From assembly GCF_032050975.1 (NCBI RefSeq), contig NZ_CP116967.1, forward strand, positions 372,001-436,000: a DNA stretch of 64,000 nucleotides, read 5' to 3'. A program made the position numbers and the translations under genes. This document shows, piece by piece, positions 2,907 through 11,725 of the stretch (position 1 is its first letter; every line of letters begins with the position of its first letter). The notes under the pieces were generated by a model, which was not told where the DNA came from, searched no databases, and worked only from the letters and a program-made list of their open reading frames with translations. Source of the stretch: Candidatus Nitrospira allomarina. GTDB taxonomy: Bacteria > Nitrospirota > Nitrospiria > Nitrospirales > UBA8639.

Positions 2907-4007
2907 TCACTGAACCCGGATGGGAATATACGCCCGATTGTTCGAACCATTCACCTCATTAATATCGTTATCCTCATCAACGATGATTCCCAGCCAGTAA
3001 TTTTGCCCCGCATTCAGAAAATTGGGTATGATCACCGGAATCGTGGTAGTTAACACGTCGGCAGGATGAATCGAGCCAAAAGTTCCCCCACCAATACGGG
3101 TATCGCTATAGCTAATAAAGTCATTCGTTGAGACATAGATTCCGAAGGTGACGTTGGCATGAGTCTGTTTCCCATTATTTTCGATCGTAAATTCCGGCCG
3201 CACTACATTTCCTCGATTCACCCGATACCCGGGTTCCCCGGCGATCGTAATACCGGACAACGTCCCGGTGTTGGCACTATTTCGAACTCGTACCCGGTCA
3301 TGACTTGAATACTCACCGCTGGCTCCGGTTCTTCGCCAGTGCGAAGCGGACACATCGTTAAAGGCCGAGCTTTGCGAACCATAGAGCACCCGCGCCCCAT
3401 GCGAAGCGTCTTCTCCGAAATACGTGATAGCTGATCCCCCATTGGTGTGATGGTGGCGCCAGGAATCACCCATGACATTGTATTCCCAATTGACATGCAT
3501 CAGGCCAAGATAATGTCCGGCCTCGTGCACGATGACTGCATCGATGGGACGGCTTGAGCCGGTATACGTAAAGTTCGCGCTTTTGTTTTGGGAGGTCGTC
3601 CAGGACCGCCCTGTCGAATCCAACACAATATCCACTTCATCCAGTCCATAATGCCACCCGAATAACCAGTAGCAGTGATAGCGCATGCGGGCCTCTCCCG
3701 GTGGAGAAATACTTGCGGCCCATATTTCATTTTGTCCATTTCCACTTCCCACCCCACCTGTTTCGGTCGTATGGTTGATCGTAAACGGCGATGGGTTCGT
3801 GTTCGTAATATTCACACCTCGTTGGGCCGCCTGCAGGACGCTCCCGGCCGGAAAACTTCCTGTATTGATCCGCGCTGTCGTGGAGTTTCCTCCCCAACGC
3901 AATTTCTTGCCACTGTCCCCATTACATTCCAGCCAGGATGCTGAAAATGCGGGAGAACTACATAACATCAGGAACATCATGGGTAGGAAAATTTTTGTCA
4001 TATTCAT
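2907..4007 (-). CDS. Secreted matrixin-like zinc metalloprotease with C-terminal CARDB domain
   Basis: The 366-residue product begins with a signal peptide (cleavage probably after the A-F-S-A near residue 23). The zinc site is H161-E-A-G-H165-Y-L-G-L-M-H171, the HExxHxxGxxH motif of metzincins, followed by a Met-turn candidate at M179 (N-V-M-G-D). No cysteine-switch propeptide is seen. Residues about 262-366 look like a CARDB-type immunoglobulin-like adhesion module (E-N-N-G-K, then V-D-E-D-N-D-I-N-E-V near the end). The ATG overlaps the stop of the upstream gene by one base (TAATG) and has a near-perfect AAGGAGGG ribosome site, so the two are translationally coupled. Expected location is outside the inner membrane. 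The substrate is unknown. Confidence 0.85.
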   Translation of the reverse strand: MNMTKIFLPMMFLMLCSSPAFSASWLECNGDSGKKLRWGGNSTTARINTGSFPAGSVLQAAQRGVNITNTNPSPFTINHTTETGGVGSGNGQNEIWAASISPPGEARMRYHCYWLFGWHYGLDEVDIVLDSTGRSWTTSQNKSANFTYTGSSRPIDAVIVHEAGHYLGLMHVNWEYNVMGDSWRHHHTNGGSAITYFGEDASHGARVLYGSQSSAFNDVSASHWRRTGASGEYSSHDRVRVRNSANTGTLSGITIAGEPGYRVNRGNVVRPEFTIENNGKQTHANVTFGIYVSTNDFISYSDTRIGGGTFGSIHPADVLTTTIPVIIPNFLNAGQNYWLGIIVDEDNDINEVNGSNNRAYIPIRVQ

Positions 4008-4969
4008 TATCGAAGTCCCTCCTTAGCATGAATGTCATAACGCTCTTCATCGCTTATTTTAAGTATTGCCTCATCCTTGGCCTCGAGAGCCAAGACCTCT
4101 TGGTCAGGCACCTCAAACCGTTCTTTCGCATTAGCCATCACTATTGGGAATCGAGGATCACCCACCTGTTTACTCCACTCGCGTATGGCGTCAAAAAATA
4201 CTTCGGGACTCAACGGTTCTCCGTAGGTTTCCATTGGAATAGCCTCTGATTCTTCGGTGACATCTCTCTGGATTGGCAGAACCTGATTGCCCAGATTGAC
4301 CGTCGTGACCTTGGGAGCTTCACGCTCATAACGGGCCTGCAGATCTTTCAAGCTCAGGCGGCTCTCCCGGCTTATGCGATCGATATAGGCCTTCATATCA
4401 GGTCGTTCCAACAAGGCTTTAAACGAAGGGCGGGGTATTTCCATGACATTCAGATCGAACCGTGGTTTACCCCCAATGCGTAACGTTTTGTGGGCTTCCA
4501 CAACCGGCACTCCCCAACCATTCAACACCTGATTTTCATGTATACGGAATCTTCCCTCGACACATTCCACCAGCTGGCAATCGTCGATTTCTCCTCCTTT
4601 GACGAACAACACATCGGTTTGTCCAAGGGCAAACGCGGGGGCTGTCGAAACCATGTAGACACCACCCTGCCCATCGGCCCCACCGGGAATTCGAAGCGTA
4701 ACTTTTTTGTCCGGGACATCACCTCTCAAAACTTCCAGAACCTGATAAGTCACAAACGTATGAGGAAGACCCTGAGGTTGCTCTTTCGTGGGCTCTGAGT
4801 TTCGATATTGGATATCAACAACCTGACCATACATAATCAAACCCGCTTCACGAACTTTCGATTGAAGACCGCCTTCGCCGGCATCATTAGGACTATGTCC
4901 CCATGCTGATGAATTGATGGCCACCATGCCAAGCATTACCGCTACGTTGAAGAACACATTGAGTTTCAT
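4007..4969 (-). CDS. Secreted partner protein encoded with the metzincin protease
   Basis: I prefer the ATG at 4969 (about 320 residues) over the one at 4990, because AAAGGG lies about 7 bases before it and the product then starts directly with a signal peptide ending near S-S-A-W-G. The first half after the signal contains V-x-G-x-V, T-Y-Q-V-L-E-V-L-R-G and a L-R-I-P-G-G block. This looks like an all-beta domain I associate with genes next to matrixin proteases; that association is from memory and needs a search. The second half is charged and helical. Two cysteines sit close together (D-D-C-Q-L-V-E-C). It could be a chaperone, inhibitor or substrate of the protease. Function not assigned. 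Confidence 0.65.
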   Translation of the reverse strand: MKLNVFFNVAVMLGMVAINSSAWGHSPNDAGEGGLQSKVREAGLIMYGQVVDIQYRNSEPTKEQPQGLPHTFVTYQVLEVLRGDVPDKKVTLRIPGGADGQGGVYMVSTAPAFALGQTDVLFVKGGEIDDCQLVECVEGRFRIHENQVLNGWGVPVVEAHKTLRIGGKPRFDLNVMEIPRPSFKALLERPDMKAYIDRISRESRLSLKDLQARYEREAPKVTTVNLGNQVLPIQRDVTEESEAIPMETYGEPLSPEVFFDAIREWSKQVGDPRFPIVMANAKERFEVPDQEVLALEAKDEAILKISDEERYDIHAKEGLR

Positions 4970-6148
4970 AGAATGCCCTTTCTGTTTCATTTGCGTGAAT
5001 ACAAAATTGTCGGAACCGTGACCAAGCAGTCTTCATTTACGGATCACCGAAATCGTTGTGTGTCCATTTTCTGCGTTGCATCTGAATTGTTTGCGCCTGC
5101 TTTCTAAGCATGCACCCTCCTTGGTGAGTTAATGAGAAAAAGTATTTCTGCAGCCTGCTAAAGCAACCTCAATGCCAGAATCATCAATGAAAAAAAATCA
5201 CCCTATTCATTGGCAATTTGAATATATTTCAATCCAAATTTTTTTCGATCAACTCCTCTTTACCGGCGAAACCCAACAATATTAGATACGAATGGTATCG
5301 ATTCAGATACGCACAACGATTAGCAAACACGATCCCTCGCTCTATCGCCGTGAACCCATTACTGACCGTTAAAAGAGATTGAATCAATACCAACGCGAGA
5401 GGGGAGCAGCATCGGAACTGTTGTATTGCTTTGGCCGTTCATAAGGGAACGATGCCGGGAGTGGTTCGCTGGAGATGAAATTAAGGAATGTCATAGGGAA
5501 ATCATCGTATTCCGAAGCGATGGTATTCAGGAGCAACTGAAGGGGTAAGACATACGACTCTTATATGGAGGGGATCGGGTTAAACCCGGATCGGGAAGTC
5601 AGGCGTGACTCGAATTTCCCAATGGCATCCGGATGGCACTCAAGGTACATTCTGATTCTCCTATTCTCTCTCGCTGGGAAGACGGCAAGGGATTTATCAG
5701 GATCTTACGTCAGTCGAAAGGAGAGGTTTGGGTCGAAATTATTGGAAATCGAAACTTCAGGAGCCACTGCAGCTGTAAAGGAAACGGAATTTGGCAACAA
5801 GGTCCTGCCGTATGGTGGACTCTCACTGTAGTGAAAAAGGGATCGTGGAATTCGGCACTGCGTTCGGAACCTGCCCGATCAAAACTTCTACACTTAGCTA
5901 TGAGAATCGAGAAAAATGTATGAAGCAGGTTTCCGTCGATGCAGCCCTAATGTCGCGGGGACCCAAGGTATTCGACAGTAGTCATTACCGTTAGGTTATC
6001 GCCATAAAGAGGGCCCGTTCCGACAGACCGGAACGGGCCTATTTTTTCGTGTTGGGATCTGGGCTCGTGGGTTATCCCTGCACCTTCTTTCTCTATTATT
6101 CCTTTCCACGATCGCCTTGGGTACGTAACCAACCTTGTTCTGGGCATT
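4970..6148. other. Gene-poor 1.2-kb stretch
   Basis: This lies between the start of the protease-partner operon and the end of the channel gene, both on the minus strand. Overlapping plus-strand frames between 5565 and 5994 have no ribosome sites and no domains. The only firm element is the strong hairpin terminator at 6012-6047, which reads best on the plus strand and therefore hints at a plus-strand transcript here, perhaps non-coding. An imperfect palindrome (GATCGGG around 5573 and CCCGGATC around 5586) lies near the possible 5' end. Confidence 0.45.
6012..6047 (+). terminator. Strong intrinsic terminator
   Basis: GGCCCGTTCCG (6012-6022) pairs perfectly with CGGAACGGGCC (6029-6039) around a six-base loop, and is followed by TATTTTTT. 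On the minus strand the T-run is much weaker (CTCTTTA), so the better reading direction is plus. It may still end the minus-strand channel transcript as a bidirectional element. Confidence 0.8.
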
Positions 6149-6991
6149 TCAACCTTTCAACACTTTCGATAGGGATAGGACATTTTCTTCAGACGTTCTT
6201 TCCAAGCGCTCCTCAAGGCGCTTGAGGGCTATTTGTGTTTCTCTCAAATCTTTGAGTATCTCTTTTTGTGTGACCGGCCCCTGAAGTTCAGCCAGGCGTT
6301 CGGCTTTGGCTTCATCGAGGTTATTGATCACCACGGCAATAAACAGATTAATCACGACAAACGTCCCTAAGACCACAAAACTCACAAAATAGATCCAAGA
6401 CAGGTAATGAAAATCCATAGCGGTATACATCACATCAGTCCAATCTTCCAGGGTCACGACGCGAAATAGGGTCAACAGCGAGATCCCCAATGATCGCCAA
6501 TGCGTCGGATCGTGCTCATGAAACAACTGATAGCCCATGATGGCGTAGACATAAAAGATCACGCCCATGAGCGTCATCACGTGAATCATGCTGGGAATAG
6601 ATCTGACGAGGGTTGAAACGATAAGACGGAGCTCAGGAATGGTCGAGATGAGACGAACCACCCGCAACAAGCGGGCTAACCGTGCAATCATGGCAAATTC
6701 ACCGGTAGCCGGAATCAAAGAAAATACGATGACGGAAAAATCAAAGATGTTCCAACCATCTCGAAAATACCGATCAATCTGCGGTGCCACGGCAATCATT
6801 TTGATGAGGGCTTCCAGAATAAAAATTCCAAGGATGACGTGATTTCCCCAATGCATCAGTGCACCATAATGTTCCACCAATGCCGGTGAGGTTTCCAGGC
6901 CAAGAATGACCCCGTTAACGAGAATAAAGGCAATGATCCCGTACTCAAACCATGGGTGGCGGACAATCTGATTCGCTTGATCTTTTATCAT
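6149..6991 (-). CDS. Voltage-gated cation channel, one-domain (NaChBac/NavAb type) with acidic filter
   Basis: About 280 residues with six membrane segments. S4 carries regularly spaced arginines (R-L-A-R-L-L-R-V-V-R-L, residues about 106-116 counting from the TTG two codons upstream of the chosen ATG). The pore loop reads T-L-E-D-W-T-D at 182-188. Bacterial sodium channels carry TLESWSM or TLESWAS here, while the engineered calcium-selective CavAb carries TLDDWSD. This protein therefore has the extra acids at the second and last filter positions but keeps Glu at the first. After S6 a charged coiled-coil tail (K-R-L-E-E-R-L-E-R) fits a tetramerisation helix. Expected in the inner membrane as a homotetramer. 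ATG 6991 is chosen; the ribosome site is weak. Ion selectivity is inferred only. Confidence 0.88.
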   Translation of the reverse strand: MIKDQANQIVRHPWFEYGIIAFILVNGVILGLETSPALVEHYGALMHWGNHVILGIFILEALIKMIAVAPQIDRYFRDGWNIFDFSVIVFSLIPATGEFAMIARLARLLRVVRLISTIPELRLIVSTLVRSIPSMIHVMTLMGVIFYVYAIMGYQLFHEHDPTHWRSLGISLLTLFRVVTLEDWTDVMYTAMDFHYLSWIYFVSFVVLGTFVVINLFIAVVINNLDEAKAERLAELQGPVTQKEILKDLRETQIALKRLEERLERTSEENVLSLSKVLKG

Positions 6992-7123
6992 CGTCAACTC
7001 ACAGGCTCATGGCGTATTCTCACCCTGGTACCAGGAAGAGAACGAGCGCCGATTCATTAAATGTTGGAAAATGGGAGGGATGAACCCGGTGAAGGAAAGC
7101 CGTAGCCCAACTCTCGGGGAGCT

Positions 7124-7552
7124 TCAACTCCCCGAAGTTTGCAAATAGCCCCGCAGTAAATCTCTTCGCGCGACGATCCCGATTAATTTCCCCTTTGAAT
7201 CCACGACAGGCACCCGAATCAAATGATTATTTTGGAGGACATCCATCAGAGTCAGCACATTGGTATCTTGCGTGACCGATACCGGATTGGCAGTCATGAT
7301 ATCACCTGCCGTCACATCTTCCAGATTTTTTCCTTTACGCAAGGCTTTCAGTAAATCAAACTCGGAAACGATTCCCACCAATTTCGAGGTTTCGTCAATG
7401 ATGGGAACGGAACCAAATCCTTCCATCATATAAGAGGCCAGTAACTTGGCTTCCGAATCTTTCATGCCCGATTGCACTTCTTTCTCCATGACACTGCCTA
7501 CGGTTAACTGCCCAAATTTACTGGCCCGCAAAGCTGCCACATCATCGCTCAT
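7124..7552 (-). CDS. Protein with two CBS domains
   Basis: 142 residues consisting almost entirely of a tandem CBS pair (about 14-70 and 83-138). Each repeat shows the V-M-x-K or I-M-T opening, a central V-P-I-I-D or V-P-V-V-D strand and a closing G-I-V-S-E-F-D-L or G-I-V-A-R-R-D-L. Such Bateman modules usually bind adenosine nucleotides and sense energy charge. No effector domain is fused. It lies 570 bases upstream of the channel gene on the same strand, which could be a functional link but is too far for a confident operon. The partner is unknown. Confidence 0.85.
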   Translation of the reverse strand: MSDDVAALRASKFGQLTVGSVMEKEVQSGMKDSEAKLLASYMMEGFGSVPIIDETSKLVGIVSEFDLLKALRKGKNLEDVTAGDIMTANPVSVTQDTNVLTLMDVLQNNHLIRVPVVDSKGKLIGIVARRDLLRGYLQTSGS

Positions 7553-7685: not shown

Positions 7686-8603
7686 TCACAACGGGAAAAG
7701 ATGGTATTTCCCACACGCCACTTCCAACACACCTTCAGGGCTCCAGTTCTTCAACTTAAGATCCGCAGCCAAATCCGCATCCCATGCCTCCTGCGGAACC
7801 AGGCCCACAATTTCACTTTCCTGAATTTCCACACCCAACCGATGGGACTCCCGCTCCACAGCCTGAAAGGCCGCTCGCAAGGATGTTTGCCGGAAATCCA
7901 TCAAATTCATGGACACCTGCACAAGCCTTTTTGATGTCAAGGGCACACCCATGGCCTTGAGGGCAGGTAAGCCTCCACCTGAGGACCGGATCGTGCCGGC
8001 AATACGACGAGCCACGTGAATGTCCTGACTTTTGAGGACCACGTTAAAGGCAATCAGGAAGAAACGGGCTCCGATTGCGACCGCTCCTGCCGTAGGATGC
8101 AATACGTTTGGGCCAAAATCAGGCTTCCACTCCGCTTCTTGATCCATCCGTTCCTGTAACCCAGAAAGCCCTCCCCGCCGTATACTATCCAGCCGGGCCC
8201 GCAAAGGCACTAAAGCCGCCTGTTCATAGAGAAAGACGGGAATGCCCAGCTCTTCCCCCACTCGCCTGCCCAAATTTTTGGCATATTCCGCACACTCCTC
8301 CATCGTCACGTTTCGTAAGGGAATCCAGGGCACCACATCAACCGCCCCGATGCGTGGATGCTGCCCCTGATGTCTGCGGAGGTCAATGCTATGCTGTGCT
8401 TCTTGAATAAACTGAAAAAGCGCCGTGGCCATTGCCCCAGGTTCTCCTGCAAGGGTAAAAACCGACCGATGATGATCGGGATCCATATGAAGATCGAGTA
8501 AGCCCACATTAGGTACCGACTGAATGCGCTCAGTCAATACAGCGAGGACTGCCTTGTCCAGGCCCTCACTCACATTCGGCACACATTCTACCAACCGATC
8601 CAT
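7686..8603 (-). CDS. ftcD: Glutamate formimidoyltransferase
   Basis: 305 residues beginning M-D-R-L-V-E-C-V-P-N-V-S-E-G, the hallmark start of the formiminotransferase domain, with the D-P-D-H-H-R-S substrate-binding segment near residue 41 and an H-P-R-I-G-A-V-D-V-V-P-W block. The enzyme moves a formimino or formyl group between glutamate and tetrahydrofolate in the cytosol. The cyclodeaminase domain found in fused FtcD proteins is absent. No histidine-degradation genes are nearby, so a role in one-carbon supply or folate salvage rather than histidine use is possible. Start supported by family alignment. Confidence 0.88.
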   Translation of the reverse strand: MDRLVECVPNVSEGLDKAVLAVLTERIQSVPNVGLLDLHMDPDHHRSVFTLAGEPGAMATALFQFIQEAQHSIDLRRHQGQHPRIGAVDVVPWIPLRNVTMEECAEYAKNLGRRVGEELGIPVFLYEQAALVPLRARLDSIRRGGLSGLQERMDQEAEWKPDFGPNVLHPTAGAVAIGARFFLIAFNVVLKSQDIHVARRIAGTIRSSGGGLPALKAMGVPLTSKRLVQVSMNLMDFRQTSLRAAFQAVERESHRLGVEIQESEIVGLVPQEAWDADLAADLKLKNWSPEGVLEVACGKYHLFPL

Positions 8604-8867
8604 GGCCCCTTTCTTTCATCTGCCGACGCGGCTAAGAAGCCTGCGGTCCATGCCTCATGCAGGCACAATCCGGAACAGGCTTTTGTTGACACCGAAAAAA
8701 TTACCATATTATAGTCGAATGAGGAGTAAGGCTCATCTGTGAAAAATGTCTCAAAGCAAAACCAACTCTATCAAAGGCCAAGATCTGCTATACTCCGTAA
8801 CAATCCGCCTATATCGGGGACTCTTTTAAAGGCGACCCATCATTTTTCTGAGAAAGAAGGTGACATC

Positions 8868-9398
8868 ATGAACGCCACCCACGTAGAACCAGCAACTGCC
8901 TTAGCCGAGCTCAAAGAAACCAAACCCGATAAAGTGACACTTGTCGTCCTGAGCGGAGATATGGACCGCGTCATGGCGGCCCTGATTATCGCAACCGGGG
9001 CCGCAGCCATGGGCATGCAGGTAACGATGTTTTTTACCTTTTGGGGGTTGAATGCCATCCGGAAGGAAAATGTGAGTAGCTCCCCTAAGGATTGGCTTCG
9101 TCGAGCCTTTGGATGGCTGAACAAAGGGGGAGCCAGTCGCCTGCCCCTCTCACGATTTCATTTTGGAGGTCTCGGAACCACCATGATGAAAAAGGTGATG
9201 AAAGATAACCGCATGCCGGGTATACCCGAACTCATGGAAACCGCCAAAGATCTGGATGTAAAGATGATTGCCTGCACCACGACCCTGGGACTTATGGGCA
9301 TTTCAAAGGATACGCTCATTGATGGCATCGACCAACTCGCCGGAGTCAGCACCTATTTGGCGGAAGCCCGGCACGGGTCCGTAAACTTATTTATCTAA
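8868..9398 (+). CDS. DsrE2-like sulfur-carrier protein
   Basis: ATG 8868 follows GAAGGTGA. An upstream in-frame extension from 8739 has no family character and is rejected. The 176-residue product has the DsrE/DsrF/DrsH fold, starting with K-V-T-L-V-V-L-S-G-D, then a hydrophobic stretch A-A-L-I-I-A-T-G-A-A-A-M-G-M-Q-V typical of DsrE2. A single cysteine, C136 in K-M-I-A-C-T-T-T, sits where DsrE2 proteins carry the persulfide-accepting residue. The next gene, 22 bases on, is TusA. DsrE2-TusA pairs pass sulfane sulfur between rhodanese-like donors and acceptors. No rhodanese or heterodisulfide-reductase-like genes are in view. Confidence 0.85.
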   Translation: MNATHVEPATALAELKETKPDKVTLVVLSGDMDRVMAALIIATGAAAMGMQVTMFFTFWGLNAIRKENVSSSPKDWLRRAFGWLNKGGASRLPLSRFHFGGLGTTMMKKVMKDNRMPGIPELMETAKDLDVKMIACTTTLGLMGISKDTLIDGIDQLAGVSTYLAEARHGSVNLFI

Positions 9399-9420
9399 CG
9401 ACACCACAAAAGGATGAACT

Positions 9421-9663
9421 ATGATACCAGCCGACGTTAAACTCGATACATTGGGGTATTTTTGCCCGATGCCTATCATTCTGACTTCAAAAAAAATCAA
9501 AGAACTCGCCTCAGGGCAAGTCCTGGAAGTGATTTCGGATGACGAAGGGATAAAAAAAGATATGCCGGCCTGGTGCGAGACAACCGGACACGCCATGGTT
9601 GGTATGGAAGAAGAAGGTGCTGCGGACAAAAAAGTCTACAAAGCTTATGTCAAAAAGGCCTGA
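9421..9663 (+). CDS. TusA-family sulfur carrier
   Basis: 80 residues, the usual family length. L-D-T-L-G-Y-F-C15-P-M-P carries the invariant CPxP motif whose cysteine holds a persulfide. The C-terminal half has the D-D-E-G-I-K-K-D-M-P-A-W-C pattern, with a second cysteine common in this family. AAAGGAT precedes ATG 9421, and the gene follows the DsrE2 gene closely, so the two form an operon. Cytosolic sulfur delivery, for tRNA thiolation, molybdenum cofactor or sulfur metabolism, cannot be separated from sequence alone. Confidence 0.92.
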   Translation: MIPADVKLDTLGYFCPMPIILTSKKIKELASGQVLEVISDDEGIKKDMPAWCETTGHAMVGMEEEGAADKKVYKAYVKKA

Positions 9664-11365: not shown

Positions 11366-11725
11366 ATGGCACGCTTTGTCATTGCCGGGAGTAAGGGGAC
11401 GGACGATCCAACAATGGCTACCCTTCCGTTTATCGCCTCACAAGAGGCTCATAAACAAGGGCATGAGGTCGTCTTGTGGCTTCAGGCCGAGGCCGTCGTC
11501 TTAGCAAAAAAAGGTGTGGTAGATGGTGTACAGGGAATCGGGCTACCGGCCTTGAAAGTGCTAGCCAATACCATTCTGTCTCAGGGTATTCCTTTGTGGG
11601 TGTGTTCAGCCTGTGCGATCGCCCGACAAATTCACGAATCTGATCTCGAGGTGGGTGCCGTAATGAAAGGCATGCAGGATTATGTCAAAGCTGTGGCCGA
11701 AAGAGATCGCAATCTTTCGTTTTAA
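11366..11725 (+). CDS. Small DsrE-family protein with a CxxC pair
   Basis: 119 residues with a DsrE-like Rossmann-type fold: starts R-F-V-I-A-G-S-K-G-T-D-D-P, then A-S-Q-E-A-H-K-Q-G-H-E-V-V-L-W-L, ending in the cysteine strand P-L-W-V-C80-S-A-C83. In DsrE/DsrF-like proteins one cysteine at this place can accept persulfide; the CxxC pair also permits disulfide redox switching. ATAAGGAG precedes the ATG. It lies 2 kb from the DsrE2-TusA pair on the same strand, interrupted by the opposed dehydrogenase gene. A related sulfur-trafficking role is likely but inferred. Confidence 0.8.
   Translation: MARFVIAGSKGTDDPTMATLPFIASQEAHKQGHEVVLWLQAEAVVLAKKGVVDGVQGIGLPALKVLANTILSQGIPLWVCSACAIARQIHESDLEVGAVMKGMQDYVKAVAERDRNLSF

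Follow-up and report, generated by a model that had tools for sequence, protein, structure and literature searches.

The window analysed here, a stretch of 64,000 nucleotides from Candidatus Nitrospira allomarina, carries a voltage-gated cation channel gene on its minus strand, together with the following features of the gene and its surroundings.

6149..6991, minus strand: voltage-gated cation channel gene, 280 aa, with an ATG start at 6991 (open reading frame, Pfam match and structural model)
6653..6682, minus strand: S4 voltage-sensor stretch with R104, R107, R110 and R113 (alignment to NaChBac and 35 relatives)
6455..6490, minus strand: P1 pore helix, residues 168–179, including Arg177 (codon 6461–6463) at the position of NavAb Gln172 (model and alignment)
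6434..6454, minus strand: selectivity filter TLEDWTD, T180–D186 (sequence and alignment)
6281..6400, minus strand: S6 inner helix, residues 198–237 (model)
6155..6268, minus strand: C-terminal helix, residues 242–279, aligning with the C-terminal helix of NaChBac and NavAb (model, at lower confidence)
7124..7552, minus strand: gene for a two-CBS-domain protein, co-directional with the channel and 132 bp upstream of it (Pfam CBS, 3.9e-24)
7686..8603, minus strand: formiminotransferase (FTCD) gene, a conserved neighbour (conserved gene order and family match)
6011..6040, no strand assigned: strong terminator-like hairpin of 12 pairs, 3′ of the channel gene (consensus match only, with the best T-tail on the plus strand)

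The gene at 6149–6991 is a genuine single-domain voltage-gated ion channel gene and not a chance open reading frame. Its product matches Pfam PF00520 (Ion_trans) at 1.3e-52, and no NCBIfam model matched it. The nearest solved one-domain channels by sequence, among the matches listed, are 4bgn (a voltage-gated sodium channel that we take to be NavCt), NaChBac and NavAb. A TTG codon lies in frame at 6997, close to the ATG. An AlphaFold2 model of the monomer, which was built from an alignment of 35 relatives and does not extend to subunit contacts, has a mean pLDDT of 82 (about 90 in the pore region) and matches NavAb, CavAb and NaChBac with Foldseek E-values of about 1e-12 and Z of 19–20 over about 220 residues. 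It has the six-transmembrane Ion_trans fold of the BacNav superfamily, with a P-loop between S5 and S6. Each of the four S4 arginines has its counterpart in NaChBac, and all four, like the aligned counter-charges E60 and D84 (the S2/S3 acids), are invariant in the 35 relatives. The C-terminal helix is probably the tetramerisation coiled coil seen in BacNavs; a search of residues 242–279 for a clean heptad register found none. Comparison with close relatives gave dN/dS values of 0.04–0.10, indicating purifying selection on the gene. The initial annotation had called this a bacterial one-domain voltage-gated channel, and the Ion_trans match, the fold match and the S4 arginines all uphold that call. 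It had also named TLEDWTD as the filter, and both the alignment to NavAb and NaChBac and the model place this motif in the pore loop, between P1 and a P2 helix modelled at residues 184–192 (local pLDDT about 90). It had put acids at the second and last positions besides the first Glu; counted along the filter, the acids are Glu, Asp and Asp at positions 3, 4 and 7.

Many Nitrospirales loci retain the FTCD, CBS-domain and channel genes in this order, and the CBS gene lies immediately upstream of the channel in 16 of them. A functional partnership between the CBS protein and the channel is nonetheless speculative, since the CBS gene was not found at three further loci (L060, L061 and L073). Sulfurtransferase genes of the DsrE-like and TusA kinds also lie nearby on the plus strand (8739–9663 and 11366–11725), and of these TusA and the first DsrE-like gene are also conserved at the same Nitrospirales loci as the channel. 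On the minus strand, 2907–4007 encodes a secreted-looking protein with a CARDB domain and a matrixin (M10) match too weak to reach the family cut-off, and the adjoining 4007–4990 encodes a 327-aa protein without a family match; among the flanks compared, only those of three close relatives contained this pair.

Of 37 genomes from the host's own family, 25 had an orthologue of the channel. Two sister families had none, in 8 and 11 genomes respectively, and a third had one in 3 of its 4 genomes. The absences within the host's family are not all real, because many of these genomes are incomplete. Every full-length Nitrospirales orthologue found has the filter TLEDWTD. One relative (genome G008, contig C2) has, about 8 kb from its intact gene, a 106-aa open frame with the filter TLEDWMY (L029); this truncated second channel copy looks like a decayed duplicate. 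We infer that the host family (GTDB UBA8639) is lineage IV, a mostly marine group with Na+ pumps and Mrp antiporters. Lineage IV Nitrospirales have been described as mostly marine and as carrying Na+ pumps (PMC12342949), and their Na+ pumps and Mrp antiporters are also drawn from a second source (PMC7784846). The host's own genome encodes MnhB, of an Mrp-type Na+/H+ antiporter. A search of the available literature found no paper joining Nitrospira with a voltage-gated sodium channel, and the Nitrospira papers checked make no mention of a channel.

Published work with ancestor-like BacNavs bears directly on the filter. NavPp of Plesiocystis pacifica, with an identical TLEDWTD, prefers Na+ (PCa/PNa 0.308, PK/PNa 0.16) and shows low-affinity Ca2+ block, while CavMr of Meiothermus ruber, with TLEGWVD, is a native prokaryotic Ca2+ channel with a PCa/PNa of 218 (PMC7041947). 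Swaps at position 4 moved these values in both directions: D4G raised the PCa/PNa of NavPp to 41, and G4D lowered that of CavMr from 218 to 7.7. In ancestor-like BacNavs, Ca2+ selectivity goes with glycine, not aspartate, at this position (PMC7041947). No current came from two further cloned members of this group whose filters are similar (PMC7041947), which counts against the reading favoured below. The protein encoded at 6149–6991 has the ancestor-like pattern TLE[D/G]W.D, with Asp and not Gly at position 4. In its filter it is identical to NavPp, likewise a one-domain voltage-gated channel of a marine host, and the two hosts belong to different phyla. With CavMr it probably shares the published group, and it has the same filter residues Glu3 and Asp7; it differs in having Asp4 and Thr6 where CavMr has Gly4 and Val6, the residues that determine Ca2+ selectivity there, and so lacks the glycine that marks the CavMr type. 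NaChBac and NavCt, of the Bacillus type, are alike in fold, S4 arginines and S6 (NaChBac at 36% identity), but NaChBac differs in its filter (TLESWAS), in having Gln at the third position before the filter (−3), and in P2, which contains an Arg and is longer by one residue. NavAb and the engineered CavAb share the fold (Z about 20; 33% identity), but their filters, TLESWSM or TLDDWSD, sit in a backbone with Gln172 and Arg185; the Nitrospira channel has neither a TLESW filter nor equivalents of these two residues.

Relatives were gathered by whole-genome searches in four phyla, a contig scan and plasmid hits, and the resulting alignment comprised 217 distinct sequences, among them the 6149–6991 protein and, as references, NavAb and NaChBac. 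The commonest filter was TLEDWTD (98 of 217), with TFEDWTD in 24, counts that are not population frequencies because sampling began from relatives of the 6149–6991 protein. The view that natural filters of this kind are few is therefore wrong for TLEDWTD, at least among the relatives sampled. All 98 TLEDWTD and all 24 TFEDWTD sequences have Arg at −3, which corresponds to Gln172 of NavAb. In relatives with glycine at position 4 (Gly4) this residue is mostly Asn, Glu, Gln or Lys; L154, with Arg and the filter TFEGWTT, is one of the rare exceptions. One close relative, L181 (genome G666), has lost both extra acids (TLESWTS) and kept the Arg, and so offers a naturally occurring test of what the acids contribute. 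Two apparent channel fusions, L075 (787 aa) and L116 (591 aa), were set aside as most likely stop-to-stop frames running upstream of the channel's own start. Chloroflexota relatives that are 58–67% identical to the 6149–6991 channel include more promising candidates for native Ca2+ channels than the 6149–6991 gene itself. Five relatives at 58–61% identity combine CavMr-type filters with Glu at −3 and would be the better places to look: L111 (VXSB01000011, Chloroflexi; 61% identical) has TLEGWVD, the exact CavMr filter, L091 has TLEGWID, and L092, L096 and L097 have TLEGWVE. A tree of 100 rows, inferred quickly without the filter columns and with many open forks, groups the 6149–6991 channel with Chloroflexota Gly4 channels in a 15-row set (98% SH-aLRT). 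A branch with 100% SH-aLRT parts it from the NavAb-like channels, and NaChBac lies at the base, its fork open.

The reading that we favour, at a probability of about 0.6, is that the 6149–6991 channel would be an ancestor-like BacNav of the NavPp/CavMr type, preferring Na+ and blocked by Ca2+. Both the ion preference and the block are predicted from the identical NavPp filter. Asp at position 4, the Arg at −3 common to all 98 TLEDWTD relatives, the branch that parts the channel from the NavAb-like group and the fold match also speak for this reading. The family pattern of orthologues, MnhB and the marine lineage IV were counted in its favour as a salt-water context. The protein would form a homotetrameric cation channel activated by depolarisation, in which the four-arginine S4 would open the S6 gate. 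Its TLEDWTD filter would pass mainly Na+ with a modest leakage of Ca2+, and millimolar external Ca2+ would partly block the pore, as in NavPp. Lineage and context suggest that such a channel could serve Na+ re-entry and the homeostasis of pH and membrane potential in a salt-water nitrite oxidiser. The initial annotation had taken the filter to suggest calcium permeation, and that is now the less likely reading because the only recorded natural channel with an identical filter conducts Na+ and is blocked by Ca2+ (PMC7041947).

The backbone around a filter also matters, and the assignment is uncertain for that reason: TLEDWTD grafted into CavMr (CavMr-Pp) gives a PCa/PNa of 13.8 and a PK/PNa of 0.95, with little monovalent selectivity (PMC7041947). 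The 6149–6991 protein could accordingly be a cation channel of low selectivity that favours Ca2+ moderately (PCa/PNa about 2–20), an alternative that we regard as rather unlikely. Its backbone could be CavMr-like, since Gly4 channels with CavMr-like filters share its well-supported 15-row clade, but in most of those relatives the P1 arginine is absent, which sets their backbones apart at an important site. Less probable again is Ca2+ selectivity by the CavAb mechanism, with the extra aspartates building Ca2+ sites, as the initial annotation had proposed by analogy with TLDDWSD. Each subunit does have three filter acids, and the analogy holds in other backgrounds, where Ca2+ selectivity is seen with TLEDWSM and TLEDWSD in NavAb and with TLEDWAD in NaChBac (PMC10120453, PMC7041947). 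In NavAb, replacing S by D at position 4 alone raised Ca2+ permeability about 100-fold, and a review has proposed aspartate at this position as a calcium-channel mark, in a text from which NavPp is absent (PMC10120453). In NavPp, however, T6S (TLEDWSD) and T6A (TLEDWAD) kept or strengthened the Ca2+ block and gave no Ca2+ selectivity, the wild-type TLEDWTD being Na+-preferring (PMC7041947). The pore backbone here is also unlike that of NavAb: P2 is shorter by one residue, nothing corresponds to Arg185, and Arg takes the place of Gln172. That the gene is decayed or non-functional is very improbable: such genes do decay, as the truncated L029 attests, but here the frame is intact, gating charges and gene order are conserved, and dN/dS is low.

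Within the Na+-preferring, Ca2+-blocked reading, the arginine beside the filter could conceivably account for the difference between backbones. In NavAb, Gln172 hydrogen-bonds the backbone of Glu177 and is held by Arg185 of P2, and Q172N gave no current (PMC12919392). It is a tentative suggestion, and one that may well fail, that Arg177 pairs with Asp4, Asp7 or both and so offsets part of the added charge, which would explain Na+ preference and Ca2+ block here as against Ca2+ selectivity in the NavAb and NaChBac grafts. The association of Arg at −3 with Asp4 is strong in raw counts but is largely clade structure and suggestive only: an independent-pairs test on the 100-row tree found about 4–5 of 6 pairs in the same direction, which is not significant (p about 0.2–1). 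A simpler model, in which the arginine merely neutralises the filter, is weakened by NavPp bearing the CavMr filter, which is highly Ca2+-selective (PCa/PNa 215) with the rest of NavPp, presumably including the arginine, unchanged (PMC7041947). If the pairing does exist, Nitrospirales TLEDWTD and Chloroflexota TLEGWVD channels would amount to a natural experiment, with the two sites changing in concert.

What is new here is most likely a further ancestor-like BacNav channel, in a marine-type nitrite oxidiser, of a kind that was itself already known. It corrects a tempting inference, in that the number of acids in a filter is no predictor of Ca2+ selectivity across backbones. The arginine beside the filter and the Chloroflexota relatives with the exact CavMr filter offer testable handles on the choice between Na+ and Ca2+. 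For the organisms themselves, a channel most likely of the NavPp type would be a conserved resident gene of salt-water nitrite oxidisers.
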